DNA of 64,000 bases from contig WNKP01000008.1 in assembly GCA_009797885.1 (NCBI GenBank), forward strand, positions 62,001-126,000. The letters are read 5' to 3'. Origin of the DNA: Flavobacteriaceae bacterium GF1 (lineage in GTDB: Bacteria; Bacteroidota; Bacteroidia; Flavobacteriales; Flavobacteriaceae). Each line of letters starts with the position of its first letter. Position 1 is the first letter of the stretch. Positions 9,506-31,446 of this stretch are shown piece by piece. Below the pieces are notes generated by a model, which had not been told where the DNA came from, searched no databases, and saw nothing but the letters and a program-made list of their open reading frames with translations. Both the position numbers and the translations under genes were made by a program.

Positions 9506-9523
9506 CTGAATTCCTTGTTTGGG

Positions 9524-9985
9524 TTAACGCATGTTTTCAGCAGCTTTTTCAACTGCCCTATAGATTCGGTTGTAACTGGCACACCTACAAATATTGCCGT
9601 TCATGGCATTTTTGATTTCTTCCTCGGTTGGATTGGGATTGCGTTCCAAGAATGCGGAAGCCGTCATGATCTGTCCCGCTTGGCAATATCCACATTGTGG
9701 AACGTCAATTTCTTTCCAGGCTTGTTGAACAGGATGTTCTCCAAATTCCGATAGGCCTTCAATGGTAGTGATGGATTTTCCTTCCACCTGTTCCAGGGTC
9801 ATGGTACAACTCCGCATGGCCGTTCCATCTACATGGACCGTACAGGAGCCACATACACTTATTCCACAACCATACTTTGTTCCAACTAGGTCTAAATGAT
9901 CCCGCAGTACCCAAAGTAAAGGGGTATCTGCAGCTACATCAACGGATTGGGATACTCCGTTAACTGTAATTTGATACGTTGGCAT
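9524..9985 (-). CDS. [2Fe-2S] small subunit of the molybdopterin oxidoreductase
   Basis: A 153-residue protein with two iron-sulfur domains. The N-terminal plant-ferredoxin-like cluster is bound by CGISVCGSC plus a downstream Cys (MRSCTM), and the C-terminal four-helix domain carries CGYCQAGQ and ICRCASY. It pairs with the large subunit, starting the operon 18 bases upstream of it, and relays electrons from the molybdenum site. A GGAG-like ribosome-binding site lies about 18 bases upstream of the ATG. There is no signal sequence of its own, consistent with Tat co-export of the complex. Confidence 0.93.
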   Translation of the reverse strand: MPTYQITVNGVSQSVDVAADTPLLWVLRDHLDLVGTKYGCGISVCGSCTVHVDGTAMRSCTMTLEQVEGKSITTIEGLSEFGEHPVQQAWKEIDVPQCGYCQAGQIMTASAFLERNPNPTEEEIKNAMNGNICRCASYNRIYRAVEKAAENMR

Positions 9986-10368
9986 AGCTTTTTGATTTTT
10001 GTTCTCCTGTTGAAGGTACCAAAATTTGAAGTTGCCCTGCCTTTTTTAACCGTAGAAGGACGGCTTTTAACTTTTTTTTACGAACCCTCTTTATGGATAA
10101 GGCCTCTAAATGAAAGCTGATGCCACGGCCCTAGGCCTTGCGTGTAAAACCCTATTCCGTTTACTTTGGACATGCCCAGGTGAAGGCCCAAGCCTTTGGA
10201 TATAAAAATAGTCCAAGACCGGCGTCCCCTTCCATTGGATATCCCAGAACCCTTTTTGAATTCAATGCAAGAATCCCTGTCTTTTCTTTTTTCGATTTTT
10301 TTAGGTATTTTGTTGCAACTGGATTTACGTTCAAAATCTTGCGTAATAGTATTTAAGTTCACTTCCAT
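9986..10368. other. Divergent intergenic region, 383 bases
   Basis: This stretch separates the minus-strand molybdenum operon from the plus-strand regulator and must hold both promoters. A T-rich block with two TTTTAAC-type repeats lies at about 10044-10080. Open frames exist on both strands between 10078 and 10368, but none resembles a protein family or has convincing codon use. No promoter element could be assigned with confidence. Confidence 0.5.
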
Positions 10369-13161
10369 TTGAAAAATACACTCTGGATTACCTGTCTATT
10401 GTTTTGGGGCCTCAATGCCCAGGAACTTCCTCCAATCCAAAATTTTTATCCCAAGGATTATCAGGGCGAAAATCAAAATTGGGCCATTTCACAGTCTACG
10501 GAAAAACTGATTTATGTTGCCAACAGCAAAGGCTTACTGGAATATAATGGTGCGAATTGGACACTCTACCCCTCTCCCAATGAAACCATCATGCGATCCG
10601 TTCGGGTGGTAAGGGACCGGATTTATACGGGTTGCTTTATGGAATTCGGTTATTGGAAAAGGGATGCCCTGGGCAGCCTGGTGTATACTTCTTTGTCAAA
10701 AAACATGGCAGTGGACCTTATTGAAGATGAAGAGTTCTGGGAGATTTTTGAAGTGGAGGATTATATGGTCTTCCAATCGCTAAAACGCATCTATATCTAC
10801 AATGTGGATGACGGTTCCGTGAATACAATCGAATCGAACAGTACCATTACCAAAATGTTTCGAGTAGATGAAGATATCTATTTCCAAAGGATGGGACAGG
10901 GCCTGTACAAAATAGAGTCGGGCAGGGATTTTTTGGTTTTCAACGATGACATTGTAAAAAACGATGAAGTCATTCATGTTTTTCCCGCCGAAAATGATTT
11001 GTTGGTCCTCACCAAGAACAACGGATTTTATAGGCAAAAAGATAGTGTGTTGGTTGCCTCCGAAAACTTTCCCAATACCTATTTATCGCAGCTAAGTTTG
11101 TACGATGGCGTTCAACTGGAAGATGAAAGCTATATTTTGGGCACCATATCCAATGGGCTAATCTACCTCAACAATAATGGGGAACTGCGTTATCAGATAG
11201 ATCAGGATGAGGGCTTACCCAACAATACGGTTTTGTCCCTTTTTGAAGATATGGACAGAAATATTTGGCTGGGCTTGGATCATGGTATCAGTTATGTCAA
11301 TATAGAAGCGCCCTATAAGGTTTTTAATGATTTTAAAGGAGTGTTGGGCAGTGTTTATGCCTCATCGATCCATGAAGGAAAACTATACCTGGGAACAAAT
11401 CAGGGTCTTTTTTACAGGGAATTGGATAACACCAAGGATTTTGAACTCATCAATGGAACACAGGGTCAGGTTTGGTGTTTGGAAAAGCTCGATGGCAAAC
11501 TGTTCTGCGGGCATAACTCAGGTACCTTTCTGGTCAATGGGAACAAGGTTCAAAAAATAGCCTCCGTTCAAGGGACCTGGGACATTGCCGAGTTGAAGGA
11601 CAAACCAAATTTATTGCTTCAGGGAAATTATGATGGACTCTATATCCTGGAGAAATCAAAGAACTCTTGGCGTCTGCGGAACAAGATCAAAGGGTTCAAC
11701 AATAGCTCGCGTTATTTTGAAACCCTGGGAACCCAAATCCTGGTAAACCATGAGTATAATGGCGTCTTTAAGATAACGGTGGACAGCACATTTTCCGAGC
11801 TTGGGGACATGAAAATCGATACCGTGATAAAAGGTTCCAATTCCGGTATTGTGAAATATAACGGAAAGCTCTTCTATGCGTACAAAAAGGGAATTTTTGA
11901 GTATGGGGAAACCAATGGGGATTTTCAGAGGGATAGCGTTCTAAGTACCATTTATACGGAAGACGAATACGAATCCGGAAAACTCATTGTGGATGAAAGT
12001 GATAATACCTTATGGGTATTCACCAATTCCAATATAAGCTATGTCACCCCAGTACGCCTTACCAGGGCCGCCAGAATTAAGCGTATCCCCTTGACAAAGG
12101 AGATGCGGGAAGGGATTTTGGGATACGAAAATATTACGAGATTGGACGATTCCGGAAATTATCTCCTGGGAAAAACCTCTGGATATATGACCTTTAATCT
12201 CAATGGGATTGTCCCGCGTGATTTTCGTATTTACTTGGCCAATGTTTCCAATGGCATCGCAAAAGGCGAGGAAGCGTTAAGGGACAAATCGCAGAAAGGC
12301 AATTTTAAGAGTCATGAAAACAATCTGGGATTTTCCTTTTATGCCCCGGAGTACCATAAATACTTGAACACCCAATATCAATACAGATTGCAGGGACTTT
12401 ATGACAGTTGGAGCGACTGGTCGCAAGACCACGAGGCCTACTTCGAAAACCTACCCTTTGGAGACTATGTATTCCATGTGCGCGCAAAGATTGGGGATAC
12501 CGTTTCTGAAAACAAGGCCTCTTACTCCTTTTCCGTAGCCAAGCCATGGTATATCTCAAATACCATGATTGTCCTCTATATACTGGGAATACTCCTGTTT
12601 TCATTGTTTATGCATACGCTCTACAGACGGTATTACAAAATACAACGTCAAAAGCTTATAGAGAAGAACCAAAAGGAATTGGAGTTCGCACAGGTTCAAA
12701 ATGAGAAAGAGATCATTAGGATAAAAAACAAGCAATTGGAGTTGGAAAACAAGAATAAGGGTAAGGAATTGGCGGCGTCCACAATGAATATCATCAAGAA
12801 AAATGAGTTGCTGACCAATATAAAGAACGAACTAAAGACCATTAGGGACCAGAACATCGTTAAGCCCGTAATCAAGATCATTGACAATAGTCTAAACCAG
12901 AATGACGATTGGGAACTTTTTCAGGAGGCATTTAACAATGCCGACAGTGAATTTTTGAAGAATATCAAAAAAATGCATCCTTCCCTATCCCCTAACGATC
13001 TTAAATTATGTGCCTACTTAAGACTGAATCTTTCTTCCAAGGAAATAGCCCAATTATTGAACATATCCCCCAAAAGTGTCGAAATCAAACGTTATAGGTT
13101 GCGAAAAAAACTGGATTTGCAACACGAAGACAATCTCGTGAACTATATTCTGGAGTTATGA
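10369..13161 (+). CDS. Membrane-spanning one-component regulator: propeller, Y_Y_Y and LuxR-type HTH
   Basis: A 930-residue sensor-regulator. A signal peptide (LWITCLLFWGLNAQ) leads into a periplasmic two-propeller region with Reg_prop-type repeats (for example ALSLFEDMDRNIWLGLDHGIS-like blocks near residue 285). A Y_Y_Y (triple tyrosine) domain ends near residue 720, followed by one transmembrane helix around residues 725-755, a charged coiled coil, and a C-terminal LuxR-type HTH at about 872-925 (LSSKEIAQLLNISPKSVE). There is no histidine kinase or receiver, so it should carry a periplasmic signal straight to DNA. The start is TTG; an in-frame stop lies just 13 bases upstream and no ATG is available. 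It most likely controls the beta-glucan locus that follows. Confidence 0.88.
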   Translation: MKNTLWITCLLFWGLNAQELPPIQNFYPKDYQGENQNWAISQSTEKLIYVANSKGLLEYNGANWTLYPSPNETIMRSVRVVRDRIYTGCFMEFGYWKRDALGSLVYTSLSKNMAVDLIEDEEFWEIFEVEDYMVFQSLKRIYIYNVDDGSVNTIESNSTITKMFRVDEDIYFQRMGQGLYKIESGRDFLVFNDDIVKNDEVIHVFPAENDLLVLTKNNGFYRQKDSVLVASENFPNTYLSQLSLYDGVQLEDESYILGTISNGLIYLNNNGELRYQIDQDEGLPNNTVLSLFEDMDRNIWLGLDHGISYVNIEAPYKVFNDFKGVLGSVYASSIHEGKLYLGTNQGLFYRELDNTKDFELINGTQGQVWCLEKLDGKLFCGHNSGTFLVNGNKVQKIASVQGTWDIAELKDKPNLLLQGNYDGLYILEKSKNSWRLRNKIKGFNNSSRYFETLGTQILVNHEYNGVFKITVDSTFSELGDMKIDTVIKGSNSGIVKYNGKLFYAYKKGIFEYGETNGDFQRDSVLSTIYTEDEYESGKLIVDESDNTLWVFTNSNISYVTPVRLTRAARIKRIPLTKEMREGILGYENITRLDDSGNYLLGKTSGYMTFNLNGIVPRDFRIYLANVSNGIAKGEEALRDKSQKGNFKSHENNLGFSFYAPEYHKYLNTQYQYRLQGLYDSWSDWSQDHEAYFENLPFGDYVFHVRAKIGDTVSENKASYSFSVAKPWYISNTMIVLYILGILLFSLFMHTLYRRYYKIQRQKLIEKNQKELEFAQVQNEKEIIRIKNKQLELENKNKGKELAASTMNIIKKNELLTNIKNELKTIRDQNIVKPVIKIIDNSLNQNDDWELFQEAFNNADSEFLKNIKKMHPSLSPNDLKLCAYLRLNLSSKEIAQLLNISPKSVEIKRYRLRKKLDLQHEDNLVNYILEL

Positions 13162-18048: not shown

Positions 18049-18915
18049 ATGAAAAATAAAATTCTAAATACACATATGAGATCAACACTGGGTTACAGGA
18101 TACTTAGCTTAAGCGTATTCCTTTTGGTTTTGGGTTGCGAAAATGATGATGCCCAGACCGTAGCTAGGCTCACAACTTTAGTATGGGAGGATAACTTTGA
18201 CGTAGACGGTGCTCCAGATCCGACTCGTTGGAGGTTTGACCTCGGCGATGGAACCGCACAAGGCATTCCAGGCTGGGGAAACGATGAATTGCAATACTAC
18301 ACAGATAGACCGGAAAATGTAACGGTCCAAAATGGGTTTCTCCTGATCACTGCAAAAGAGGAGGATTTCAATGGGGCCGAGTTTACCTCTGCAAGGCTTA
18401 CCACCCAAGGATTGTTTGAACGGGCCTATGGACGTTTTGAAGCACGTATCCGGGTACCTTTTGGACAAGGTTATTGGCCTGCATTTTGGTTATTGGGAAA
18501 TAATTGCGATGAAAACCCATGGCCCGCCTGTGGGGAGATCGATATTATGGAGAATGTAGGCGATGAACCTACCATTGTTTTTGGTAGTGTCCATGGCCCT
18601 GGTTATTCAGGTGGGGATTCCATCGGTAAGGATTATGAATTGACAGACGATCGTTTTGATACTGGATTCCACGTCTTTGGAATTGAGTGGTCGCCGGAAT
18701 CCATAAACTATTATGTGGATGGCGATTTGTACCAAAGTATTACACCGGAAGACATAGACGAAGAAACGGATGGTGAGGGCCAATGGATTTTTGACCGCCC
18801 CTTTTATATCATCCTTAACGTGGCCGTTGGCGGTAATTTACCAGGACCACCGAATGATGAAACAGTTTTTCCCCAAACCATGCTCGTAGACTACGTACGT
18901 GTATATGAACAGTAA
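18049..18915 (+). CDS. GH16 endo-beta-1,3-glucanase (laminarinase) lipoprotein
   Basis: A 288-residue GH16 enzyme. The signal has lipobox LVLGC with Cys 30. The catalytic block is GEIDIMENVG, with nucleophile Glu 163, Asp 165 and acid/base Glu 168; the extra residue in ExDxxE is typical of the laminarinase-type GH16 group. Substrate-cleft aromatics are visible in GQGYWPAFWLLG. The domain fills the whole mature protein and ends in the usual VDYVRVYEQ strand. As a surface lipoprotein it should make the first cuts in laminarin-like beta-1,3-glucan. The start at 18049 is the first ATG; the in-frame ATG at codon 10 is an alternative. Confidence 0.93.
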   Translation: MKNKILNTHMRSTLGYRILSLSVFLLVLGCENDDAQTVARLTTLVWEDNFDVDGAPDPTRWRFDLGDGTAQGIPGWGNDELQYYTDRPENVTVQNGFLLITAKEEDFNGAEFTSARLTTQGLFERAYGRFEARIRVPFGQGYWPAFWLLGNNCDENPWPACGEIDIMENVGDEPTIVFGSVHGPGYSGGDSIGKDYELTDDRFDTGFHVFGIEWSPESINYYVDGDLYQSITPEDIDEETDGEGQWIFDRPFYIILNVAVGGNLPGPPNDETVFPQTMLVDYVRVYEQ

Positions 18916-18934
18916 AAAGAAAAAACACTCTATT

Positions 18935-21736
18935 ATGAAACAGACAATTGAAGCAATAAAACTACTCTCGGTCTTCTTTTTGGTACTAACATTCTTAGGT
19001 TGTGAGGACGACGATACCGTACTACCAGCGGTAGAAGCAGGTTTTACCTTTACCCTGGATCAAAATACCGGTACGGTAACCTTTATCAATACATCTACCA
19101 ATGCCAATAACTTCGCCTGGAACTTTGGAGATGGGACAAGTTCGGAGGAGATCAATCCCACAAAAATCTATACGGCAAATGGTACGTTTACAGTGGTATT
19201 GACAGCATCCAGTGTGGCAGGTGCTTCCGGTACTTTTGAAGATGAACTTACGATTAACATTCCTGAAGAGGTGGGCTTTCCCATTAATTTTGACGTTGCA
19301 AACGTGGATTACTCGACCATTACCACCTTTGACACCGCGTTCCAAATTATAGAAAACCCAGAGCTATCCGGCACCAATCCAACTGCATCTTTGGTAGGTG
19401 AAATTGTTTCCAATGGGATTTCGTTTCAAGGAGTAACCTTTCCTTTGGAGACCCCAATAGACTTTAGTGGTGCGGACAAAACCATAACGTTAAAACTATA
19501 TGCCACCGTAGCAACGGATATTTTGGTTAAGTTTTCCGGCGGTATTGATGGTGCCAGGGATGTTGAAGTTGTAGCCGCACACTCTGGCAGCGGTTGGGAA
19601 GACATGACTTTTAACTTTGCGACCGATGGGGTAAAAAGTTTTGTCCAAGACGACCCCGAAAATGGTCAGGCATTTGTACCGGATGGACAATACGGGAATC
19701 TGGACCTCTTTGTAGGCTTTGGAGCCGACCCTGGAATATCAAGTACATTTTATATAGATGATATTGTACAAACCGAACCCAATTCAAATGGAGGTGGTAA
19801 TATGGGGGGCTCCCTTGTGGCCTGTGACGGTGGGGAACTGATCAATGACCTCGAATCCTCCGACGATACCATATTCAGTAATTTCGGTGGTGGCGTGGGT
19901 ACCGTTATCGATAATCCCGATACCTCCGTGAACATGAGCGCCAAAGTAGGACAGTACGTCAAGAACACCGGGGAGCTTTTTGGGGGGATAACCATCGCCC
20001 TGGACAGTAACATTGACCTTAACAATGGGGTGTTCTCCATAGACGTTTACTCACAGACGGTGCGCCAGCTCCTGTTCAAGTTGGAAGGCTTGGACGTGGA
20101 GTCGACAACACCCACTTCCGGTACCGGATGGGAGACCTTGGAGTACGATTTTAACGGAAATATGGGGGCGGTTACGGCAATTACCCTCATCATGGACAAT
20201 GGGACCGCTGGGGACGGCAGTGCAGATTGGACCATACAGTTCGATAACATCAGGTTGTGCAGCAACGATAGTACAGGTGGCGGTAGCTCCCTTGTGGCCT
20301 GTGATGGTGGGGAACTGATCAATGACCTCGAATCATCCGACGATTCCATATTCAGTAATTTCGGGGGTGGCGTCGGTACTGTTATCGATAATCCCGACAC
20401 CTCCGTGAACATGAGCGCCAAGGTAGGACAGTACGTCAAGAACGCCGGGGAGCTTTTTGGGGGGATAACCATCGCCCTGGACAGTAACATTGACCTGAAC
20501 AATGGGGTGTTCTCCATAGACGTTTACTCACAGACGGTGCGCCAGCTCCTGTTCAAGCTGGAGGGCTTGGACGTGGAGTTGACAACACCCACTTCCGGTA
20601 CCGGATGGGAGACCTTGGAGTACGATTTTAACGGAAATATGGGGGCGGTTACGGCAATTACCCTCATCATGGACAATGGGACCGCCGGTGACGGCAGTGC
20701 AGATTGGACCATACAGTTCGATAACATAAGGTTGTGCAGCAACGGTAGTACAGGTGGCGGTAGCTCCCTAGTGGCCTGTGACGGTGGGGAACTGATCAAT
20801 GACCTCGAATCCTCCGACGATTCCATATTCAGTAATTTCGGTGGTGGCGTCGGCACCGTTATCGATAATCCCGATACCTCTGTGAACATGAGCGCCAAGG
20901 TAGGACAGTACGTCAAGAACGCCGGGGAGCTTTTTGGGGGGATAACCATCGCCCTGGACAGTAACATTGACCTGAACAATGGGGTGTTCTCCATAGACGT
21001 TTACTCACAGACGGTACGCCAGCTCCTGTTCAAGCTGGAGGGCTTGGACGTGGAGTTGACAACACCCACTTCCGGTACCGGATGGGAGACCTTGGAGTAC
21101 GATTTTAACGGAAATATGGGGGCCGTTACGGCAATTACCCTCATCATGGACAACGGGACCGCTGGGGACGGCAGTGCAGACTGGACCATACAGTTCGATA
21201 ACATCAGGTTGTGCAGCAACGGTAGTACCGGTGGAAGTGGAACACCAGGAGGATTGGCTTCAAATGGTGACTTTGAAACGGGCGACGATACAGGTTGGAT
21301 GTTGTTTCAGAATGGTGGAACGGCAGCACTTGACAATACCCTGAACAATGGCGGTAGCTGGTCCGGAAGACTTACTGTTGGCGATACGGGAGGAAACCCT
21401 GCCTTCAAGCAAGAAAGAATCGGAGCGGGTACCGTAGCTGCAGGGGACGTTGTTCAAATTCAATTTGACCATATTGGTTCTATAGTACAGCCAGGTGCGG
21501 CGGTCAATGTAGTTCTCTTTGGGGAAAGTCCCGGTGGAGTTACCTTTACGGAAGTCTTGACACCGGCGCCTGTTTTAGGAGGAACGTGGTCAACTTTTAC
21601 AGGAACATATACCATTCCCGGCGGCACGGATGTCTCTGAAGGTATTTCATTCCTTATTGAAACCGTTTGTGGAGCAGTAACTGGTTGTAGCGTTACAATG
21701 AATATTGATAATGTCTCAGTTACTTTAAATCCATAA
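18935..21736 (+). CDS. PKD and multi-CBM surface lipoprotein with triplicated module
   Basis: A 933-residue lipoprotein with signal ending at LTFLGCEDDD. A PKD domain follows (FAWNFGDGTSSEEINPTKIY) at about residues 35-110, then a CBM-like sandwich to about residue 285. Three tandem 159-residue modules come next, each starting SLVACDGGELINDLES and ending at a DNIRLCSN strand with a Gly/Ser linker. A C-terminal CBM4-like domain begins SNGDFETGDDTGW. No catalytic domain is seen, so it is probably a surface beta-glucan binder. The ATG at 18935 gives a proper lipoprotein signal; earlier GTG and ATG codons at 18899 and 18905 overlap the GH16 gene. It is the last gene before an intergenic hairpin. 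Confidence 0.82.
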   Translation: MKQTIEAIKLLSVFFLVLTFLGCEDDDTVLPAVEAGFTFTLDQNTGTVTFINTSTNANNFAWNFGDGTSSEEINPTKIYTANGTFTVVLTASSVAGASGTFEDELTINIPEEVGFPINFDVANVDYSTITTFDTAFQIIENPELSGTNPTASLVGEIVSNGISFQGVTFPLETPIDFSGADKTITLKLYATVATDILVKFSGGIDGARDVEVVAAHSGSGWEDMTFNFATDGVKSFVQDDPENGQAFVPDGQYGNLDLFVGFGADPGISSTFYIDDIVQTEPNSNGGGNMGGSLVACDGGELINDLESSDDTIFSNFGGGVGTVIDNPDTSVNMSAKVGQYVKNTGELFGGITIALDSNIDLNNGVFSIDVYSQTVRQLLFKLEGLDVESTTPTSGTGWETLEYDFNGNMGAVTAITLIMDNGTAGDGSADWTIQFDNIRLCSNDSTGGGSSLVACDGGELINDLESSDDSIFSNFGGGVGTVIDNPDTSVNMSAKVGQYVKNAGELFGGITIALDSNIDLNNGVFSIDVYSQTVRQLLFKLEGLDVELTTPTSGTGWETLEYDFNGNMGAVTAITLIMDNGTAGDGSADWTIQFDNIRLCSNGSTGGGSSLVACDGGELINDLESSDDSIFSNFGGGVGTVIDNPDTSVNMSAKVGQYVKNAGELFGGITIALDSNIDLNNGVFSIDVYSQTVRQLLFKLEGLDVELTTPTSGTGWETLEYDFNGNMGAVTAITLIMDNGTAGDGSADWTIQFDNIRLCSNGSTGGSGTPGGLASNGDFETGDDTGWMLFQNGGTAALDNTLNNGGSWSGRLTVGDTGGNPAFKQERIGAGTVAAGDVVQIQFDHIGSIVQPGAAVNVVLFGESPGGVTFTEVLTPAPVLGGTWSTFTGTYTIPGGTDVSEGISFLIETVCGAVTGCSVTMNIDNVSVTLNP
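19810..21240 (+). repeat. Three tandem 477-bp coding repeats
   Basis: Copies run at about 19810-20286, 20287-20763 and 20764-21240 with an exact 477-base period (159 codons). Copies 2 and 3 encode the same residues through the core and differ only at scattered silent positions, while copy 1 differs at a few residues (DDT/DDS, KNT/KNA, VES/VEL). The pattern suggests recent expansion or gene conversion of a carbohydrate-binding module within the lipoprotein gene. Confidence 0.95.
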
Positions 21737-21876: not shown

Positions 21877-24800
21877 ATGTCTGCAAAGGATATTTATATA
21901 GGTAATTCCCAAATAACAATTCCCACAAAGGAAATCTCTGGGAAACAGGTGAGGTTTGAAAATGAAAATTATTACAAAATTTCAAACTTCGATGGAATGC
22001 GTCCCTTCTTTATGAGCGTGGTGAGCGATTCGAATCACTGGTTGTTTATCTCCAGTAATGGAGGTTTGTCCGCCGGAAGGCAGAACTCGGAATCCGCCCT
22101 ATTTCCCTATTACACGGATGATAAAATAACGGAATCCGCTGATATTACGGGAAGCAAGACCCTACTCCATGTACATTCCGATAATAGGATTTTTTTATGG
22201 GAACCTTTTTCGGGGCAGTCTTCGGATGTATATACCATCCAACGGAACCTTTATAAAAACAGTCTTGGCAATAAGATTGTTTTTGAGGAAATTAATGAAG
22301 ATTTGGGCTTGACCTTCAGATACCACTGGAATTCGAGCAATCGATTTGGGTTTGTAAAAAAATCCACACTTGTGAACAATCGTGACAAAGAGGTTAAGGT
22401 CACCGTTTTGGATGGCATCCAAAATATCATGCCCTATGGCGTGAATTCGGCCCTGCAAAATGCCAGTAGCAACCTTGTTGACGCCTACAAAAAAAATGAA
22501 TTGGAAGCGGAAATCGGACTTGGTATTTACGCATTGAGCGCCATTATAGTGGACAAAGCAGAACCCAGCGAAGCCTTAAAGGCCACAACGGTCTGGTCCA
22601 CCGGGATTGAAAGTGCAAGCTATTTGCTTTCCTCATTGCAGTTGGATGCCTTCCGAAAAGGACGGCAAATTGAGCAGGAAATCGATATCAAAGCGGAAAA
22701 GGGAGCTTACTTTATCAATGCGGACGTCGATCTAAAGCCCAATGGTCAAAAAGATTGGATGTTGGTTGCCGAGGTGAACCAATCCAAAACGACCATTGCG
22801 GAAACCGCCCATTTGATCAAAACAAAGAAGAACCTTTTTGATTTCGTTCAAGACGATGTTGAAAAAGGATCGGCCCTTTTGCTGCAACTGAATGCAGCTG
22901 CTGATGGCATGCAATTGACCGCAGATAAGCTCAGAAATACACGACATTTTTCCAATTCGCTTTTCAATATCATGCGGGGCGGAATTTTTGACGATGGCTA
23001 TTCCATTGAAAAAGAAGACTTCATCACCTACATTCAAAAAGCGAATACCGGAGTCTATCTGGAGAAATTGGATAAACTCCATGAACTTCCGGTAAGCTTC
23101 ACCCATAGTGAGCTCAAGGCCATTTCAGATGATGATGACCATTCGGATTTTAGAAGGTTGGCCATGGAGTATATGCCCTTGAAGTTCAGTCGTAGACATG
23201 GCGATCCCAGTCGTCCATGGAACAGATTTTCCATCAATACGGAAGATGAAGACGGCAAAAAGATTCTGGATTATGAAGGCAACTGGCGGGATATCTTCCA
23301 AAACTGGGAAGCCTTGGCACATTCCTACCCCGCTTTTATTGAAAGCATGATCTTCAAGTTTGTGAACGCCACTACGTTTGATGGGTACAATCCATATCGG
23401 GTCACCAAGGACGGTTTTGACTGGGAAATCATCGAACCGGATGACCCATGGTCCTATATTGGCTACTGGGGCGATCATCAGATCATTTACCTGCTCAAAT
23501 TTCTTGAGTTCATTGAAGATCACTACCCCCAACAACTGGCCTCCTATTTTAGGGACGACATTTTTACTTATGCCAATGTGCCCTACAGAATAAAAAGCTA
23601 CCAGGCAATCCTCGAAAATCCAAAGGACACCATTGAATTTGATGAGGAATTGGATGCGAAAATCAATGAGGGACGCCAGCAATTGGGTGCGGATGCTGCT
23701 TTATTGAAGGATGCAAAAGATACAATTTATAAGGTAAACCTCTTGGAAAAATTATTGGCAACGGTACTGGCCAAAGTGTCCAACTTTATTCCGGAAGGCG
23801 GTATTTGGATGAATACCCAACGTCCTGAATGGAACGATGCCAATAACGCTTTGGTGGGCAATGGTGTTTCAATGGTCACCCTTTGTTACCTAAGACGGTT
23901 CCTTCATTTTTTTGAAAAGGTGTTAAAGGATTCCGCTGACACCGAATATCAGGTTTCGGAGGAACTCCTTCAATTTTTTAAGGCGAGCTGGGCTGCATTA
24001 TCAAACAATTCATCCATGCTCTCAGGTAAAATTTCCAATACGGATAGGAAGACCCTGATGGATGGATTGGGCAACGCAGGCGGTGCCTATCGCGATACAA
24101 TTTATGAAACGGGTTTTGGTGGTGAAAAAGGCAGGCTTACCAAGGACAATCTCCTGCAATTTGTTCAAATCACCCAGAAATACCTGGAACATAGCATTGA
24201 AGCCAATAAAAGGCCGGATAATCTCTATCATGCCTACAATCTAATGACGGTTGAAAACGACCATGAAGTCTCCATTTCCTATCTATCGGAAATGTTGGAA
24301 GGTCAGGTTGCCGTTTTGAGTTCGGGCTATATTTCGGGCAAAGCTTCCCTGGAACTTTTGGACGCATTAAAGCAAAGTGCCCTGTTCAGACCGGACCAGT
24401 ATAGTTATATTCTTTATCCGAATAAGGAACTCCCCCGTTTTTCCGATAAGAACAATGTACCCGCCCAAAAGATGGAGCAGTCGGAGTTGGTGCAAAAACT
24501 TTTGGAGGATGGAAATACGAAAATTGTTGAACAAACCATTAATGGTAGCTATCATTTCAATGGCAATTTCAATAATGCCAATAGCCTAAAAGCAGCATTG
24601 AAAAGGCTTCCGGAAGCCTATGATGAATTGGTGGAAAAAGATACTCCACTATTGCTGGAGACTTTTGAACAGGTCTTTAACCATAAGGCGTTTACCGGTC
24701 GTTCGGGTACGTTCTTTGGTTATGAAGGTTTGGGCTCCATTTACTGGCACATGGTTTCAAAACTATTGTTGAGCGTTCAGGAAACCTGTCTGGCAGCTAT

Positions 24801-25332
24801 CGAAAACAAGGAAAGTGGGGAGACCATAGGCCGATTATTGGAACACTATTACGAAATTAATGAGGGTATAGGGGTACATAAATCCCCTGAACTCTATGGT
24901 GCTTTTCCAACGGATCCCTATTCCCATACACCGGAGGGAAAAGGGGCTCAGCAACCGGGTATGACCGGTCAGGTAAAAGAGGACATCTTGAGCCGTTTTG
25001 GAGAGTTGGGTGTTTTTGTTCAAGACGGTGAATTGCTATTTAAACCCCATTTGCTGCGAAAAGAGGAGTTCTTGAAGCATTCCCAAACGTTCCAATACAT
25101 TGATGTCCACAAGGAACCAAAGGAAATCCAATTGGAAGAAGGTTCACTTTGTTTTACCTATTGCCAAATACCCATTATATATCAGTTATCCAAAAAGGAA
25201 GGGATAAAAATTGTGTCCGGTAATCATGCCATTCAAGAAAACGATGTATTGAAGCTTGACAAAGAAACCAGTGCTTTGATTTTCAACAGATCTGGCGATA
25301 TCGATCGAATTATAGTTGCAATCCAAAAATAA
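21877..25332 (+). CDS. Cytoplasmic GH149-like beta-1,3-glucan phosphorylase (GH94 superfamily)
   Basis: An 1151-residue protein with no signal peptide. The N-terminal third is a beta-sandwich region (NHWLFISSNGGLSAGRQN; TTVWSTGIESASYLL) and the rest an alpha/alpha-barrel with GDPSRPWNRFSI, SYIGYWGDHQIIYLL and RPEWNDANNAL. The Asp 654 of EWND aligns with the general acid of GH94 cellobiose phosphorylase-type enzymes. Size, lack of export signal and neighbours (GH16, GH17, GH30, MFS) fit GH149 beta-1,3-oligoglucan phosphorylases, which release glucose-1-phosphate from laminari-oligosaccharides. Assignment to GH149 rather than GH94 or GH161 is from memory of family size and context and is not proven here. 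Confidence 0.72.
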   Translation: MSAKDIYIGNSQITIPTKEISGKQVRFENENYYKISNFDGMRPFFMSVVSDSNHWLFISSNGGLSAGRQNSESALFPYYTDDKITESADITGSKTLLHVHSDNRIFLWEPFSGQSSDVYTIQRNLYKNSLGNKIVFEEINEDLGLTFRYHWNSSNRFGFVKKSTLVNNRDKEVKVTVLDGIQNIMPYGVNSALQNASSNLVDAYKKNELEAEIGLGIYALSAIIVDKAEPSEALKATTVWSTGIESASYLLSSLQLDAFRKGRQIEQEIDIKAEKGAYFINADVDLKPNGQKDWMLVAEVNQSKTTIAETAHLIKTKKNLFDFVQDDVEKGSALLLQLNAAADGMQLTADKLRNTRHFSNSLFNIMRGGIFDDGYSIEKEDFITYIQKANTGVYLEKLDKLHELPVSFTHSELKAISDDDDHSDFRRLAMEYMPLKFSRRHGDPSRPWNRFSINTEDEDGKKILDYEGNWRDIFQNWEALAHSYPAFIESMIFKFVNATTFDGYNPYRVTKDGFDWEIIEPDDPWSYIGYWGDHQIIYLLKFLEFIEDHYPQQLASYFRDDIFTYANVPYRIKSYQAILENPKDTIEFDEELDAKINEGRQQLGADAALLKDAKDTIYKVNLLEKLLATVLAKVSNFIPEGGIWMNTQRPEWNDANNALVGNGVSMVTLCYLRRFLHFFEKVLKDSADTEYQVSEELLQFFKASWAALSNNSSMLSGKISNTDRKTLMDGLGNAGGAYRDTIYETGFGGEKGRLTKDNLLQFVQITQKYLEHSIEANKRPDNLYHAYNLMTVENDHEVSISYLSEMLEGQVAVLSSGYISGKASLELLDALKQSALFRPDQYSYILYPNKELPRFSDKNNVPAQKMEQSELVQKLLEDGNTKIVEQTINGSYHFNGNFNNANSLKAALKRLPEAYDELVEKDTPLLLETFEQVFNHKAFTGRSGTFFGYEGLGSIYWHMVSKLLLSVQETCLAAIENKESGETIGRLLEHYYEINEGIGVHKSPELYGAFPTDPYSHTPEGKGAQQPGMTGQVKEDILSRFGELGVFVQDGELLFKPHLLRKEEFLKHSQTFQYIDVHKEPKEIQLEEGSLCFTYCQIPIIYQLSKKEGIKIVSGNHAIQENDVLKLDKETSALIFNRSGDIDRIIVAIQK

Positions 25333-25339
25333 AATTCAG

Positions 25340-26644
25340 ATGAAGAACATTAAAATTAACATTGTACCCATTGTTTGCCTATTGTTTATTTTAACAATGT
25401 TCTCCTGTAAAAATAAGACCAACAACGAAAGCAAAACAGCTACTGTGAAAGAAGAACCGGTATTGAGTGCAAAGGATATTTTAGGAAACCCAAACTATTT
25501 GGCTATGTCCTATGGGGGATACAGACATTCGGACCATGGTATTGAACCCACCTTGGACGAACTAAAAGAGGATATGAAAATTTTGGCGGCCATGGGGGTC
25601 GGGATCATACGCACCTATAAAGTGCATTTACCCCATGCTTCCAATGTATTAAAGGCGATCAGTGCCCTAAAACAGGAAGATTCGAGCTTTGAAATGTATG
25701 TGATGCTCGGTGCTTGGATCGATTGTAAAAACGCGTGGACCGATCAGGAGCCCGACCACCATCAAGAAAGCGAAAGAAACGCCATCGAAATTGCCGAAGC
25801 GGTCCGGTTGGCCAATGCCTATCCCGATATCGTAAAAATCGTAGCGGTAGGCAATGAGGCCATGGTAAAATGGGCCACAAGCTACTATGTGCAACCAGGG
25901 GTGATTTTAAAGTGGGTCAATCATTTACAGGACTTGAAAAAATCAGGAAAGCTATCCAAAGATTTATGGATTACAAGCTCTGATAATTTTGCTTCCTGGG
26001 GCGGTGGCGATGCCGAATATCATGTTGAGGACTTGAATAAACTGATTAAGGCGGTGGACTTTCTTTCCGTACACACCTACCCTATGCATGATACCCACTA
26101 CAATCCTGATTTCTGGGGAGTTCGTGAATCTGAAAAGGAATTATCTGACCTTGAAAGGATTCATTCCGCCATGCTAAGATCCAAAGAATATGCAATGACC
26201 CAATACCAAAGTGTGTATGATTATATGAAAAGCCTGGGTGTTGACAAACCTATACATATAGGTGAAACGGGCTGGGCCACTATTTCCAATGGGCATTATG
26301 GGCCCAATGGCTCAAAGGCCACCGATGAGTACAAAGAAGCGCTGTTCTATGACCACATACGGGACTGGACCAATGCTGAAGGGATTTCGTGTTTTTATTT
26401 TGAAGGATTTGATGAACCCTGGAAGGATGCTAAAAACCCCCGGGGGTCCGAAAACCATTTTGGATTGTTTACCGTTGATGGCGAGGCAAAATACGCGCTC
26501 TGGAGCTTAGTGGACAAGGGAACTTTTGACGGACTGAAACGCAACGGTAACCCAATCACCAAAACATACGATGGCGATAAAGAAGCATTGTTGCGGGACG
26601 TATTGGTGCCGCCCATGGCCAGTGAAACCAAAGTTCAACACTAA
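25340..26644 (+). CDS. GH17 beta-1,3-glucanase/glucosyltransferase lipoprotein
   Basis: A 434-residue lipoprotein with signal ending LTMFSCKNK. The GH17 TIM barrel has acid/base Glu 173 in VAVGNEAM and nucleophile Glu 309 in HIGETGWAT; FYFEGFDEPWK near residue 360 is also typical. GH17 enzymes cleave or transglycosylate beta-1,3-glucan. The lipoprotein signal places it in the envelope, probably the periplasm or outer membrane, where it would trim laminarin oligosaccharides. The ATG at 25340 lies 7 bases after the phosphorylase stop and directly begins the signal; an upstream start would overlap that gene. Confidence 0.9.
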   Translation: MKNIKINIVPIVCLLFILTMFSCKNKTNNESKTATVKEEPVLSAKDILGNPNYLAMSYGGYRHSDHGIEPTLDELKEDMKILAAMGVGIIRTYKVHLPHASNVLKAISALKQEDSSFEMYVMLGAWIDCKNAWTDQEPDHHQESERNAIEIAEAVRLANAYPDIVKIVAVGNEAMVKWATSYYVQPGVILKWVNHLQDLKKSGKLSKDLWITSSDNFASWGGGDAEYHVEDLNKLIKAVDFLSVHTYPMHDTHYNPDFWGVRESEKELSDLERIHSAMLRSKEYAMTQYQSVYDYMKSLGVDKPIHIGETGWATISNGHYGPNGSKATDEYKEALFYDHIRDWTNAEGISCFYFEGFDEPWKDAKNPRGSENHFGLFTVDGEAKYALWSLVDKGTFDGLKRNGNPITKTYDGDKEALLRDVLVPPMASETKVQH

Positions 26645-26668: not shown

Positions 26669-28165
26669 ATGAGAACATTGAACCATTACATTTTTATCGC
26701 ATTGACTATTGCTATGTTGGGGTGTAAGCAAAAACAGGAATCCTTGGATGTAACCGTATACGAAACCTCCGCCGCCGGAAATAAGCTGCAAAAGGTGGAA
26801 ACGACCACTGCTGCTGGGAACGTTACATCCATACAACTTTTGCCCAATCAGGAGTACCAGACCATTACAGGGTTTGGGGGTTCATTTACTGAAGCGTCAG
26901 CACATTTGTTGAACCAACTGGGCAAACAAAACCGAAGCAAGGTTTTGGAAGCTTATTTTGGGGAAGACGGAGCTAGGTACTCGTTGACAAGAACCCATAT
27001 GAATTCCTGTGATTTCTCCGTAACCAATTACTCCTATGCCCCCGTAGAAGGTGATATGGGGTTGGAACACTTTTCGATTGAAGAGGACAAAAATGATATC
27101 ATTCCAATGATTAAGGAGGCCATGGCATTGTCCCAGGATGGATTTAAAATTGTAAGCTCACCATGGACGGCGCCCCCCTGGATGAAGGATAACAACGATT
27201 GGCGTGGCGGCAAACTGCTGCCCAAATATTACGATACCTGGGCCTTGTTCTTCTCCAAATACATTGATGCTTACAAAGCTGAAGGGATTGACATTTGGGG
27301 TTTTACCGTAGAGAACGAACCTTTGGGCAATGACAATAACTGGGAGAGCATGCACTTTACGCCCCAGGAAATGACACAATTTGTTCAGAACCATTTGGGC
27401 CCTAAACTCGAAGCCGACGGTAAAGGGCATATTAAGGTTTTGGGCTACGATCAAAACCGCGAGCATTTAAAGGAATGGGTGGATGTAATGTATGCTGATG
27501 AAGCGGCCTCAAAATACTACGATGGCACAGCGATCCATTGGTATGCGAGCACCTATGAGGTTTTTCCGGAAGCACTTCAGTATGCGCATCAAAAAGCACC
27601 GAACAAGCATTTGATACAAACGGAAGCCTGTGTGGACGCCGAAATCCCAAAATGGAAGGACGATGCATGGTACTGGTCCAAAGAAGCCACGGATTGGGGA
27701 TGGGATTGGGCTCCGGAAGCGGATAAAAAATACCATCCCAAATATGTGCCCGTATATCGTTATGCAAGGGACATTATAGGTTGCTTGAACAACTGGGTAG
27801 ACGGTTGGATAGATTGGAATATGGTGCTTGATCGCCAGGGAGGGCCCAATTGGTTCAAGAATTGGTGTGTTGCGCCGGTCATTGTAGATCCCGAAAAAAA
27901 TGAAATCTATTTTACGCCCTTATACCATACCATGGCACATTTTAGCAAATACATAAGGCCCGGGGCCAAAAGGATTGGGTTCAATACTACGGATGAATCC
28001 CTATTGGTCACGGCAGCAAAAAATCCCGACGGGACAATAGCAGTAGTGGTTTTGAATATGGATACCGACCCGAAAAACGTGGAGTTGTCCATGGAAGGCC
28101 GTTCAAAGCAGTTGAAAATCAGTCCGCAAGCTATTCAGACCCTGTTGGTCAAACAACTAAATTAA
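26669..28165 (+). CDS. GH30 beta-1,6-glucanase or beta-glucosidase lipoprotein
   Basis: A 498-residue GH30 enzyme with lipobox MLGCKQ. The TIM barrel carries GFGGSFTEASA at its entry, SSPWTAPPWMKDN, acid/base Glu 217 in TVENEPL and nucleophile Glu 319 in IQTEACVD. A C-terminal beta-sandwich of the usual GH30 side domain ends the protein. In laminarin-use loci GH30 proteins remove beta-1,6-linked branches, which suits its position beside GH16 and GH17. Specificity between beta-1,6-glucanase and exo-beta-glucosidase cannot be decided from sequence alone. Confidence 0.92.
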   Translation: MRTLNHYIFIALTIAMLGCKQKQESLDVTVYETSAAGNKLQKVETTTAAGNVTSIQLLPNQEYQTITGFGGSFTEASAHLLNQLGKQNRSKVLEAYFGEDGARYSLTRTHMNSCDFSVTNYSYAPVEGDMGLEHFSIEEDKNDIIPMIKEAMALSQDGFKIVSSPWTAPPWMKDNNDWRGGKLLPKYYDTWALFFSKYIDAYKAEGIDIWGFTVENEPLGNDNNWESMHFTPQEMTQFVQNHLGPKLEADGKGHIKVLGYDQNREHLKEWVDVMYADEAASKYYDGTAIHWYASTYEVFPEALQYAHQKAPNKHLIQTEACVDAEIPKWKDDAWYWSKEATDWGWDWAPEADKKYHPKYVPVYRYARDIIGCLNNWVDGWIDWNMVLDRQGGPNWFKNWCVAPVIVDPEKNEIYFTPLYHTMAHFSKYIRPGAKRIGFNTTDESLLVTAAKNPDGTIAVVVLNMDTDPKNVELSMEGRSKQLKISPQAIQTLLVKQLN

Positions 28166-28180
28166 TCAAACCGAAAAATT

Positions 28181-30535
28181 ATGAGTGAAGCCATGAGTAC
28201 CACAGCAAAAGTGCCCTTTGGGCAAAAAGTAGCTTTTGGAGTTGGAATGTTTGCCAACCAAATGTTCCCCGCCATTCTTGGAATTTTTATGGTGGTCCTT
28301 GTACAATCATTCGGATTTAATGGGTGGTTGTGGTCCTTGGTCTATTTTTTCCCTAGGATTTTTGATTCCATAACCGATCCCATTATGGGGTTCATATCGG
28401 ACAATACGAAATCCAAATGGGGTAGACGAAAGCAGTACGTGCTAATTGGTGGAATTCTAATGGGGATAGCGTTTACCTTGATGTGGCAATTGTATTCGGA
28501 TAATACCTTACAATATAATTTTTGGTATTTCTTTTTATGGTCCATTGTATTTTACCTGGGGCTCACTTTTTTCAGTGTACCCTATGTGGCCATGGGTTAT
28601 GAAATGAGCGATGATTTTCATGAACGGACCAACATTATGGCCGTGGCCCAATGGATTGGCCAATGGGCTTGGGTCATTGCCCCCTGGTTTTGGGTGATCA
28701 TGGATGATCCGGATTGGTTTCCCAATCAAGAAATAGCTGTCCGTGAATTAGCGGTTTGGGTGGCCATCCCTTGTGCGATTGCGGCTATGGTACCAGCTAT
28801 ATTCATTAAAAGTAAATCAACCCTCGATGAAGATTATGAGCCATTGAACGTGGCCAATATTGGGGGTAGTCTTAAGAAAATTGTAGATAGTTTCAAAGAT
28901 GCCTTTAAACTAGCGGAATTTAGAAGGATCTGTGGTGCCACGTTTTTGATTTTCAATGCTTTCAATACTGTGGCCGCCCTAACCTATTTTGTTATTGTTT
29001 ATAGATTGTTCAACGGTGATGCCGTTGCCACGGGTATTTGGGTTGCCCTATTCGGATGCATAGGAGCGTTGGGCACAACGTTTATCGTGATACCATTGGT
29101 TACCTGGATGTCAAAAATAATGGGTAAAAAGAAGGCGTTCATGTGGGCCCAGGCCATTTCAATTGTTGGTTATGTCATGATGTATTTCCTTTTTATACCC
29201 GGAAAACCATGGTTGTACATTATTGCATTGCCCTTTTTCTCTTTCGGGATAGGGAGTTTGTTTACCATTATGATGTCCATGACAGCGGATGTTATCGATA
29301 TAGATGAGCTCAATTCAGGTAAACGTAGGGAAGGTATCTTTGGTGCCATCTACTGGTGGATGGTCAAAGTGGGCTTTGCCATAGCTGGGGCGCTTAGTGG
29401 GGTAATTATTGGTATTGTTGGCTTTAACCCGGATTTAGTCACCACCGAACAGCAGGGGGCAGTTGATGGGCTTCATGCATTTTTCTGCTTCTTTCCTATG
29501 GTAGGAACCCTATTTGCCATGTTGATCATGAAGAATTACGATGTTTCCGAAGAGCGCGCAAATGAAATACGTACGGAATTGGAAAAGCGTAAGAACAAGC
29601 CAGTCGAAAAACTGACTTCGTACTACCAAACGGACAAACTACGCTCGCTCGCTACCATGAACCTAAATGTCCAATCAAAGACGGATATCGATTTCATGGG
29701 AAAAACAGATGCTGAAATCAAAAAGATATTATCAAAATCGTTGACGACCGGACTTCATGGGCTTTGCTTCAGTCCGTATTTGGAAGGTCAGGATATTGGT
29801 GATTCCTTGTCGGAAGCACAGATATGGCAACGGATGGAGGTCATTGCCCCCTACACCAAATGGGTCCGCTCTTTTTCCTGTACGGAAGGAAATGAGTTTA
29901 TTCCCCACATAGCCCATGAAAAAGGATTAAAAACCATGGTAGGGGCTTGGATCGGAAGTGATAAAAAAGAAAATGAAAAGGAAATCAAGGCCCTCATTGA
30001 CCTTGCCAAAAAGGGACAGGTTGACATTGCCGTAGTAGGCAATGAGGCTTTAATGCGGCATGAGGTCACCAAGCAAGAAATCCTGGATTATATCCGCGAT
30101 GTCAAAAAAGCGTTGCCGAACGTTCCGGTCGGTTATGTGGATGCTTATTATCAATTTCTTGAAAACCCTGAATTGATAGATGCCTGCGATGTGGTTTTGG
30201 CCAATTGTTATCCATTCTGGGAAGGATGCGATATTCAGTATGCGGCGACCTATTTAAAACAAATGTACACGGTCACTAAAAATGCGGCGGCAGGAAAACC
30301 CGTGATTATTACGGAAACCGGTTGGCCCGACCAGGGTACGAATACCGGGGCAGCGGAACCTTCATCATCAAATGCGATGAAATACTTCATTAACAGTACC
30401 AATTGGGCCACTCAAGAAGGGATTTCCATGTTTTATTTCTCATCCTTTGATGAGTCCTGGAAAGTGCACCATGAAGGGGATGTTGGGGAACGCTGGGGAA
30501 TTTGGAATAAAAATGAACAACTAAAATATCAATAG
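28181..30535 (+). CDS. GPH/MFS sugar transporter fused to a cytoplasmic GH17 domain
   Basis: A 784-residue two-part protein. Residues about 10-460 form a 12-helix glycoside-pentoside-hexuronide:cation symporter: FFPRIFDSITDPIMGFISD near residue 55, KWGRRKQYVLIG, and TADVIDIDELNSGKRREG near residue 375 are family motifs. A charged linker to about residue 505 leads into a complete GH17 TIM barrel with acid/base Glu 622 (VVGNEAL) and nucleophile Glu 712 (ITETGWP). An even number of helices puts the GH17 in the cytoplasm. The frame is continuous with no stop, so this is a real gene fusion as written. It would couple uptake of beta-glucan oligomers with cleavage or transglycosylation at the inner face. 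Confidence 0.9.
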   Translation: MSEAMSTTAKVPFGQKVAFGVGMFANQMFPAILGIFMVVLVQSFGFNGWLWSLVYFFPRIFDSITDPIMGFISDNTKSKWGRRKQYVLIGGILMGIAFTLMWQLYSDNTLQYNFWYFFLWSIVFYLGLTFFSVPYVAMGYEMSDDFHERTNIMAVAQWIGQWAWVIAPWFWVIMDDPDWFPNQEIAVRELAVWVAIPCAIAAMVPAIFIKSKSTLDEDYEPLNVANIGGSLKKIVDSFKDAFKLAEFRRICGATFLIFNAFNTVAALTYFVIVYRLFNGDAVATGIWVALFGCIGALGTTFIVIPLVTWMSKIMGKKKAFMWAQAISIVGYVMMYFLFIPGKPWLYIIALPFFSFGIGSLFTIMMSMTADVIDIDELNSGKRREGIFGAIYWWMVKVGFAIAGALSGVIIGIVGFNPDLVTTEQQGAVDGLHAFFCFFPMVGTLFAMLIMKNYDVSEERANEIRTELEKRKNKPVEKLTSYYQTDKLRSLATMNLNVQSKTDIDFMGKTDAEIKKILSKSLTTGLHGLCFSPYLEGQDIGDSLSEAQIWQRMEVIAPYTKWVRSFSCTEGNEFIPHIAHEKGLKTMVGAWIGSDKKENEKEIKALIDLAKKGQVDIAVVGNEALMRHEVTKQEILDYIRDVKKALPNVPVGYVDAYYQFLENPELIDACDVVLANCYPFWEGCDIQYAATYLKQMYTVTKNAAAGKPVIITETGWPDQGTNTGAAEPSSSNAMKYFINSTNWATQEGISMFYFSSFDESWKVHHEGDVGERWGIWNKNEQLKYQ

Positions 30536-30537
30536 AA

Positions 30538-31446
30538 ATGTCATACAGGGAAGGCCGTCAGTTTTCACAGGCAAAGCATAATTTCACCGAATACGCTGGA
30601 GTTGACTTCAGCAAGATTTCCGATGATGAATTACGGGCATTGTGGTTGGAAACACTGCAAAACGGAATGCATGGTATTTGCTTTAGCATGTATGAAGATG
30701 GGCAAAAACCGGGCGATATCATTACGGAAGAACAAGTGGAACGACGAATCCAAATTCTTAAACCCTTTACCAAATGGGTACGTTCGTTTTCCTGCATTGA
30801 GGGAAACGAACATGTACCTCGCATCGCCCATAAAAATGGACTTCAAACTTTGGTAGGTGCCTGGTTAAGTGACGATTTGGAAGCCAATGAAAAGGAAATA
30901 GATGCGTTGATCCAGTTGGCCAATGAAGGTTGTGTTACCATAGCGGCAGTGGGCAATGAGGTACTCTATAGAAATGAACTTAATGAAGAACAACTACTGG
31001 GCTATCTCAACAGGGTAAAAGAAGCCATACCGGGCATTCCCGTAGGCTATGTTGATGCCTATTACGAGTTCACGAACCATCCAAAGATTACGGAAACCTG
31101 CGATGTTATCCTTTCCAATTGCTATCCCTATTGGGAGGGTTGCCCCATGGAATATTCCTTGAACCATATGCAACAAATGTATGGGCAGGCCGTTGATGCC
31201 GCGAATGGGAAAAAAGTAATCATTACGGAAACCGGATGGCCAAGTGAGGGGAGCAGCCTGGGGGGAGCCGTCTCCTCAGCGGAAAATGCAATGAAATACT
31301 TCATCAACACCCAAGTATGGTCGGCCAAGGCCAACATTGAGGTGTTCTATTTTTCGTCCTTTGACGAATCATGGAAGACCGGGGATGAGGGAGATGTTGG
31401 TGCCTATTGGGGACTTTGGGACAAACACGAAAAACTAAAGTTTTAA
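30538..31446 (+). CDS. Stand-alone cytoplasmic GH17 protein
   Basis: A 302-residue GH17 barrel without any signal peptide, starting 2 bases after the transporter fusion stop. Acid/base Glu 141 lies in AAVGNEVL and nucleophile Glu 231 in IITETGWPSEG. Along its whole length it matches the GH17 half of the preceding fusion (shared WVRSFSC.EGNE, VGYVDAYY, CDV.L.NCYP.WEGC, FYFSSFDESWK blocks), so the two are close paralogs from a local duplication. Either the free enzyme was duplicated and one copy joined to the transporter, or the fusion shed a copy. It probably acts on imported beta-1,3-gluco-oligosaccharides. Confidence 0.88.
   Translation: MSYREGRQFSQAKHNFTEYAGVDFSKISDDELRALWLETLQNGMHGICFSMYEDGQKPGDIITEEQVERRIQILKPFTKWVRSFSCIEGNEHVPRIAHKNGLQTLVGAWLSDDLEANEKEIDALIQLANEGCVTIAAVGNEVLYRNELNEEQLLGYLNRVKEAIPGIPVGYVDAYYEFTNHPKITETCDVILSNCYPYWEGCPMEYSLNHMQQMYGQAVDAANGKKVIITETGWPSEGSSLGGAVSSAENAMKYFINTQVWSAKANIEVFYFSSFDESWKTGDEGDVGAYWGLWDKHEKLKF

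Follow-up and report, generated by a model that had tools for sequence, protein, structure and literature searches.

A GH17 glycoside hydrolase fused to a membrane transporter in a flavobacterial laminarin cluster, compared with its free-standing relatives

Laminarin represents one of the main stores of carbon in the sea. We analyzed a 64,000-nucleotide stretch of the genome of Flavobacteriaceae bacterium GF1 (contig WNKP01000008.1, positions 62,001 to 126,000), here called the window, which carries a laminarin cluster containing a gene in which a membrane transporter is joined to a GH17 domain. The features of this cluster discussed below, in window coordinates, are:

10369..13161, + strand: probable cluster regulator (domain matches to Reg_prop, Y_Y_Y and a LuxR-type HTH)
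18049..18915, + strand: GH16 protein of the cluster (Pfam Glyco_hydro_16, 1.7e-22)
21877..25332, + strand: GH149 beta-1,3-oligoglucan phosphorylase, no signal peptide by eye (NCBIfam NF058639, 1811.8 bits versus a cut-off of 1150; PDB 6hq6)
25316..26644, + strand: GH17A endo-laminarinase homologue, lipoprotein-like signal by eye (Pfam; function from FbGH17A)
26669..28165, + strand: GH30, probable beta-1,6-glucosidase, lipoprotein-like signal by eye (Pfam Glyco_hydro_30, 1.3e-76; function from FbGH30)
28181..29548, + strand: 12-helix MFS_2/GPH-type symporter domain of the fusion, residues 1-456 (Pfam MFS_2, MelB fold match, D62/D66)
29549..29707, + strand: predicted cytoplasmic helix 457-471 and linker up to residue 509 (AF2 model, lengths, dN)
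29708..30532, + strand: C-terminal GH17 (beta/alpha)8 domain, residues 510-784, with Glu622 as acid/base, Glu712 as nucleophile, and Met625 (Pfam, alignments, AF2 model, fold match)
30538..31446, + strand: stand-alone GH17, 302 aa, Tyr kept, predicted cytoplasmic transglycosylase of the MlGH17B type (Pfam, alignment)

The gene set of the cluster comprises the regulator, a GH2-like protein, GH16, a PKD/CBM protein, GH149, GH17A, GH30, the fusion and the stand-alone GH17. Intergenic gaps from GH149 through the stand-alone GH17 are at most ~25 bases, and the latter gene begins 2 bases past the stop codon of the fusion. The identity of GH149 is certain. All three Pfam GH17 matches in the whole genome lie within this cluster; the adjacent stand-alone enzyme, in which no signal peptide is seen when its N-terminus is read by eye, is 52% identical to the fused domain, and GH17A is 27% identical. 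The SusD model PF07980 has no match on the contig of the cluster (C61 of G000) and 20 matches elsewhere in the genome, so that, on the basis of this one SusD model, the outer-membrane importer of the cluster may be encoded apart from it or belong to a different type. Within the PKD/CBM_4_9 protein (18899-21736) there are three tandem 477-bp copies, 96% matching, at 19809-21234.

The fusion is a single open reading frame of 784 aa (28181-30535, + strand) with an ATG start and no internal stop, and the opposite strand of this interval is packed with stops in the one reading frame translated. Pfam MFS_2 matches residues 19-456 (1.2e-62, 212.3 bits versus a cut-off of 27), and Glyco_hydro_17, a model that covers just the C-terminal third of the barrel, matches residues 695-784 (2.5e-11). 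Together with the fold matches obtained for both halves, these results bear out the in-frame joining of transporter and GH17 claimed in an earlier, sequence-only reading of this DNA. When the fusion is compared with those of two genomes of the same genus (G002 and G007), dN/dS is ~0.01-0.02 for the MFS domain, 0.07 for GH17 and 0.2-0.3 for the helix plus linker, which also has the highest dN of the three segments; a third comparison (L044) gives figures identical to those for G007 and probably represents the same genome. The missed stop or frameshift that the sequence-only reading considered as a possible refutation was looked for, and none was found, the frame being kept in other species; nor are related fusions absent, since the same fusion is present in dozens of other genomes. 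Although many relatives do carry the two genes apart, the identical frame in all those other genomes and the purifying selection on both halves refute an assembly or sequencing artefact joining two neighboring genes, an explanation with practically no probability left given that the fused GH17 domains also form a clade of their own.

An AF2 model built on an alignment of 35 sequences (the window protein and 34 relatives) has a mean pLDDT of 83.2 and contains 12 membrane helices, followed by the helix at 457-471, a low-confidence linker (pLDDT below 50 at 474-479) and a barrel starting at ~510; because the pTM is only 0.63, it is uncertain how the two domains sit relative to each other. Between residues 471 and 510 the linker has 38 residues in the window protein, and 33-40 across 35 fused proteins. 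The transporter half of the model matches MelB (9old) with a TM-score of 0.84 by target length over 480 columns, and the GH17 half matches the Rhizomucor miehei GH17 glucanosyltransferase (4wtr) with a TM-score of 0.86 by target length over 268 columns; the GH17 domain is therefore complete. When loops are taken to include five residues of each helix end, 31 Lys and Arg residues lie on the side of both termini versus 2 on the opposite side, and the GH17 domain, which follows the last membrane helix, is therefore predicted to be cytoplasmic. The cytoplasmic placing proposed in the sequence-only reading thus stands as a prediction, and its 12-helix GPH-type symporter agrees with the above-cut-off MFS_2 match, the MelB fold and the 12 predicted helices. 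By fold, the MFS domain looks like a GPH:cation symporter (TC 2.A.2), with no claim to the curated subfamily of NCBIfam TIGR00792 (178.4 bits, under the cut-off of 231.35). The MelB sugar-binding residues D19 and D124 are not conserved in the window MFS domain in an alignment read by eye, and our assignment of a substrate therefore draws on the cluster alone. MelB (4m64, 9old), a melibiose/cation symporter, thus differs at its sugar site and lacks an enzyme tail, but it shares with the window MFS domain the fold and the Asp pair of the cation site: D62 and D66, which do not vary among 35 fused proteins (that of the window among them), align with MelB D55 and D59, whose positions were taken from the D55C entry 8fq9 and from the D59C sequence common to 9old and 7l16.

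The sequence-only reading knew of no described arrangement of this kind. That was wrong, and an undescribed architecture is rejected, because the arrangement was published in 2018 as FbGH17B (FORMB_24740, AOR29491.1, Formosa sp. Hel1_33_131; PMC6246565) and was reported once more in 2023, from bloom genomes (PMC10108472). As described in the former, FbGH17B, like the window protein, has an N-terminal 12-helix MFS domain and a C-terminal GH17 domain, and is encoded in a laminarin cluster with GH30 and GH17A adjoining. According to Unfried et al. (2018), such fusions are common in marine Flavobacteriia, and FbGH17B releases glucose from debranched laminari-oligosaccharides, with coupling to import proposed (PMC6246565). 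The 2023 study of bloom genomes reports at least one GH17-MFS fusion in most expressed variant-1 laminarin PULs; it also speaks of "such PULs" in genomes of SAR92, Luminiphilus and SAR86, which need not mean that each of these carries the fusion (PMC10108472). The window protein is a member of this published kind, an FbGH17B-type MFS-GH17 fusion, likened by published description rather than by sequence identity; on that description, no difference between the two is known.

As the sequence-only reading had stated, the fused domain is a full GH17 with both catalytic Glu residues: Glu622 and Glu712 align with the GH17 catalytic pair and show no variation in a set of 35 fused proteins that includes the window's, the active-site mutant 4wtr having Ala at the Glu712 column, and the whole barrel is present in the model. 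Its alternative of hydrolase or transglycosylase can be narrowed by a residue nearby. In the R. miehei enzyme RmBgt17A (4wtp), a fungal protein without a transporter that shares fold and catalytic residues with the window domain, transfer depends on Tyr102, Trp157 and Glu158, as judged from Ala mutants (PMC11005184); Ala was the sole substitution tried at Tyr102, and Tyr102Ala lost transfer. The same paper has MlGH17B keeping all three residues and FbGH17B having Met for Tyr (PMC11005184). MlGH17B (WIW39500.1), a beta-1,3-glucanosyltransglycosylase of Muricauda lutaonensis, belongs, on its partial description, to the same GH17 group and cluster type and lacks a signal peptide; it is stand-alone and has Tyr136, a residue type that fits the neighbor at 30538-31446 and not the fused domain. 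In the window, the fused domain has Met625 at the Tyr102/Tyr136 column, as in FbGH17B, with Trp680 and Glu681 present, and the adjacent stand-alone GH17 has Tyr at that column. That Met625 stands where the transferring enzymes have Tyr, as Met does in the glucose-releasing FbGH17B, therefore favors a hydrolase over a transglycosylase, although the requirement for Tyr was tested in RmBgt17A by Ala alone.

This difference extends across genomes. Among 63 unique fused GH17 domains the Tyr column has Leu in 35, Met in 24, Tyr in 3 and His in 1, versus Tyr in 121 and Leu in 6 of 127 unique stand-alone domains; unique counts were used since some places had been fetched twice, and the counts are not independent events because the rows share ancestry. 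A third, very divergent stand-alone GH17 lineage (~310 aa), with Val for Tyr, lies 3' of the cluster in eight rows (L045, L046, L076, L077, L096, L100, L115 and L116), which a length filter left out of the unique counts. We compared other active-site positions over 206 rows, repeats included: 65 fused (all but that of G453) and 141 others. MlGH17B numbering equals the window number minus 489, an offset confirmed by the loop printed in its paper. All 65 fused rows retain Trp680 and Glu681. Fused and stand-alone enzymes agree in their catalytic residues and in the glycone contacts checked (Pro50 not among them), except for one Cys at Trp760, whereas they differ at the aglycone-side positions 625, 763 and 764. 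His is found at 763 in 45 and at 764 in 52 of the 65 fused rows, versus mostly Gly and mostly Ala, Asp or Ser, respectively, in stand-alone enzymes; both positions are among the most different, in a list headed by position 692. In the window protein, His763-His764 adjoin the equivalents of MlGH17B Ser275 (+1) and Glu276 (-1), and the equivalent of Tyr168 (+2), which is Tyr here, varies among the fused rows (Phe in 17/65, Ser in 2/65).

We computed a tree without the Tyr column. After dereplication it holds 49 fused GH17 domains, of which 48 group together in a single clade (bootstrap 100, SH-aLRT 99), and 63 stand-alone rows, all of which lie outside that clade. This tree leaves out repeat fetches (L001, L124-L127, L136, L139, L144) as well as domains whose match is shorter than ~230 residues (the Val-type GH17s and L087), and the 206 rows were dereplicated at 80% to 112; an earlier comparison had been dereplicated at 92%, from 188 rows to 153, and an earlier reading of the Tyr column took domains of at least 200 residues and covered 54 of 55 fused domains, the short fused L087 falling out. 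Among the matches listed, no domain-only match exceeds 60% identity to the fused GH17. The fused type thus appears in these sequences only in fused form, although a free-standing clade member that has diverged may have escaped notice, as the loci were collected by their similarity to the fused protein. The remaining fused domain, that of G453 (L147:1884-4343, - strand), nests among Tyr-type stand-alone enzymes (support 100/74; next larger set 100/95); it is attached to the same MFS family, and its linker includes a stretch that resembles the start of stand-alone enzymes and looks like a remnant of one. Judged by this placement, G453 is a second, independent MFS-GH17 fusion, of the Tyr type. 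Moreover, the two deepest members of the main fused clade, L115 and L148, keep Tyr, which suggests that fusion preceded loss of Tyr, the node uniting the other clade members having mixed support (96/40). Fusion as such therefore seems compatible with Tyr, as in these two basal members and G453, and the loss of Tyr as a rule-like result of fusion does not hold up; conversely, Leu occurs in the six unique stand-alone domains noted above. Fused and free GH17 look like paralogues with different active sites. The papers themselves, in the text available, leave as an open remark that FbGH17B and MlGH17B are 53% identical yet differ in activity (PMC11005184, PMC13188888); this difference may stem from the paralogy, the two proteins being compared by description and standing outside our tree.

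The fusion itself is patchily distributed. In the same genus, two of 10 other genomes carry it (G002, G007), six have the MFS protein alone beside a GH17 (G001, G003, G004, G005, G008, G009) and two have no match (G006, G010). It occurs in at least 15 of 395 genomes sampled from the phylum, the window's included (12 full-length matches, G063, G259 and G453), and in at least 6 of 395 sampled from the order, a set that overlaps the phylum sample. Among named loci, the best 80 of 248 comprise 47 fused and 33 split only, a proportion that overstates how common the fusion is because the ranking was by similarity to the fused query. The 47 fused loci among these best 80 of 248 are labelled as Flavobacteriaceae (30), Cyclobacteriaceae (6), Flammeovirgaceae (3), Saprospiraceae (1), Lewinellaceae (1) and Paracoccaceae (1, L106), with five assigned to no family; GH149 is present in 44 of them, and in 43 the start of a stand-alone GH17 lies less than 300 bp from the stop codon of the fusion. 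The L106 fusion (7992-10331) is Flavobacteriaceae-like and lies on a contig labelled as a Rhodobacteraceae MAG, reflecting transfer or mis-binning. At two further fused loci (L040:271-2835 and L041:1501-3993) the MFS domain is a second, longer paralogue, and the match breaks near residue 340. Candidate triple fusions in open frames of 1025, 1045 and 1283 aa (L124, L125, L126) were rejected as they read as separate genes, as were some open frames of 828-837 aa that are split in G375, G279 and G019.

A tree of the MFS domains by a quick method (dereplicated at 95% to 110 rows, with pieces below 400 residues left out except L115) requires 20 changes between fused and split states, of which starred branches force no fewer than 13. 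The mixing of the two states therefore means that the tail was lost, gained or exchanged many times, gain and loss of the GH17 tail being indistinguishable from change counts in these sequences. Simple deletion of the tail does not hold up as the origin of split relatives in view of G004, in which the MFS protein is 94% identical to the window's and the GH17 lies on a different stand-alone branch from the window's stand-alone enzyme; this mismatch implies that cassettes were lost or exchanged.

We consider that the fusion most probably (about 0.6) serves the laminarin cluster by importing laminari-oligosaccharides together with a cation, its GH17 part being a cytoplasmic exo-hydrolase tethered at the transporter exit. 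By the activities published for their homologues, periplasmic GH30 and GH17A would cut laminarin into short oligosaccharides, and the MFS domain would import these together with a cation, both substrate and cation being what we infer for this transporter. The GH17 domain, on its ~38-residue linker under the predicted cytoplasmic mouth, would then hydrolyze glucose off at once, as FbGH17B releases it, and immediate hydrolysis might keep free oligosaccharide low and so make import harder to reverse, if tethering does speed or pull import. GH149 would phosphorolyze the shortened pieces, and the separate Tyr-type GH17 would rearrange longer chains; this division would accord with chain-length ranges in the available text of two papers, where GH149 takes chains from DP2 upward (PMC6484121) and MlGH17B requires DP4 or more (PMC11005184). 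Against this reading, hydrolysis would cost energy relative to phosphorolysis by GH149, and the fused domain is absent from many close relatives.

A less probable but still serious account is that the fusion is mainly a membrane anchor that also fixes the ratio of the parts, without kinetic coupling to transport. The many relatives with a lone MFS protein and a separate GH17, including the 33 split-only loci among the best 80 of 248, and the intermixing of both states through 20 changes on the MFS tree fit such a role, but the failure to find a free-standing member of the fused clade, the narrow range of linker lengths and the existence of a second, independent fusion speak against it. It is rather unlikely that the tethered GH17 instead acts as a transglycosylase, a beta-1,3 analogue of MalQ by which the imported oligosaccharides are disproportionated or branched and so trapped as longer or beta-1,6-kinked chains. 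Its nearest characterized relatives, RmBgt17A and MlGH17B, do transglycosylate, Trp680 and Glu681 are retained, and the papers, as far as their text is available, leave open an undetected transfer by FbGH17B (PMC11005184, PMC13188888). Nevertheless, Leu or Met replaces the transfer Tyr in 59 of 63 unique fused domains, the adjoining Tyr-type enzyme could fill this role, and FbGH17B is reported as glucose-releasing (PMC6246565, in the text available).

Returning to import-coupled hydrolysis, a bolder form of it, to which we give only a small chance, treats the fused domain as an always-tethered type of GH17 whose aglycone side was rebuilt after fusion, through the change from Tyr to Leu or Met and the His-His loop, so that it receives the reducing end of a sugar directly from the transporter in its inward-open state. 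Uptake and hydrolysis would then form a single vectorial step, comparable to group translocation but hydrolytic, and clusters lacking the fusion would use a soluble transglycosylase.

Beyond the published fusion, the present analysis adds a residue marker and the likely paralogy of fused and free GH17; in the literature, to the extent of the text available, we found no prior account separating the two as different kinds across genomes. Should the two indeed be paralogues that differ in the active site, this would settle the published contradiction between FbGH17B, which releases glucose, and MlGH17B, which transglycosylates, and a single residue (Tyr versus Leu or Met) would serve as a marker when such clusters are interpreted in metagenomes. 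Should transport be genuinely coupled to cleavage, the fusion would represent an unusual route to one-way sugar uptake.
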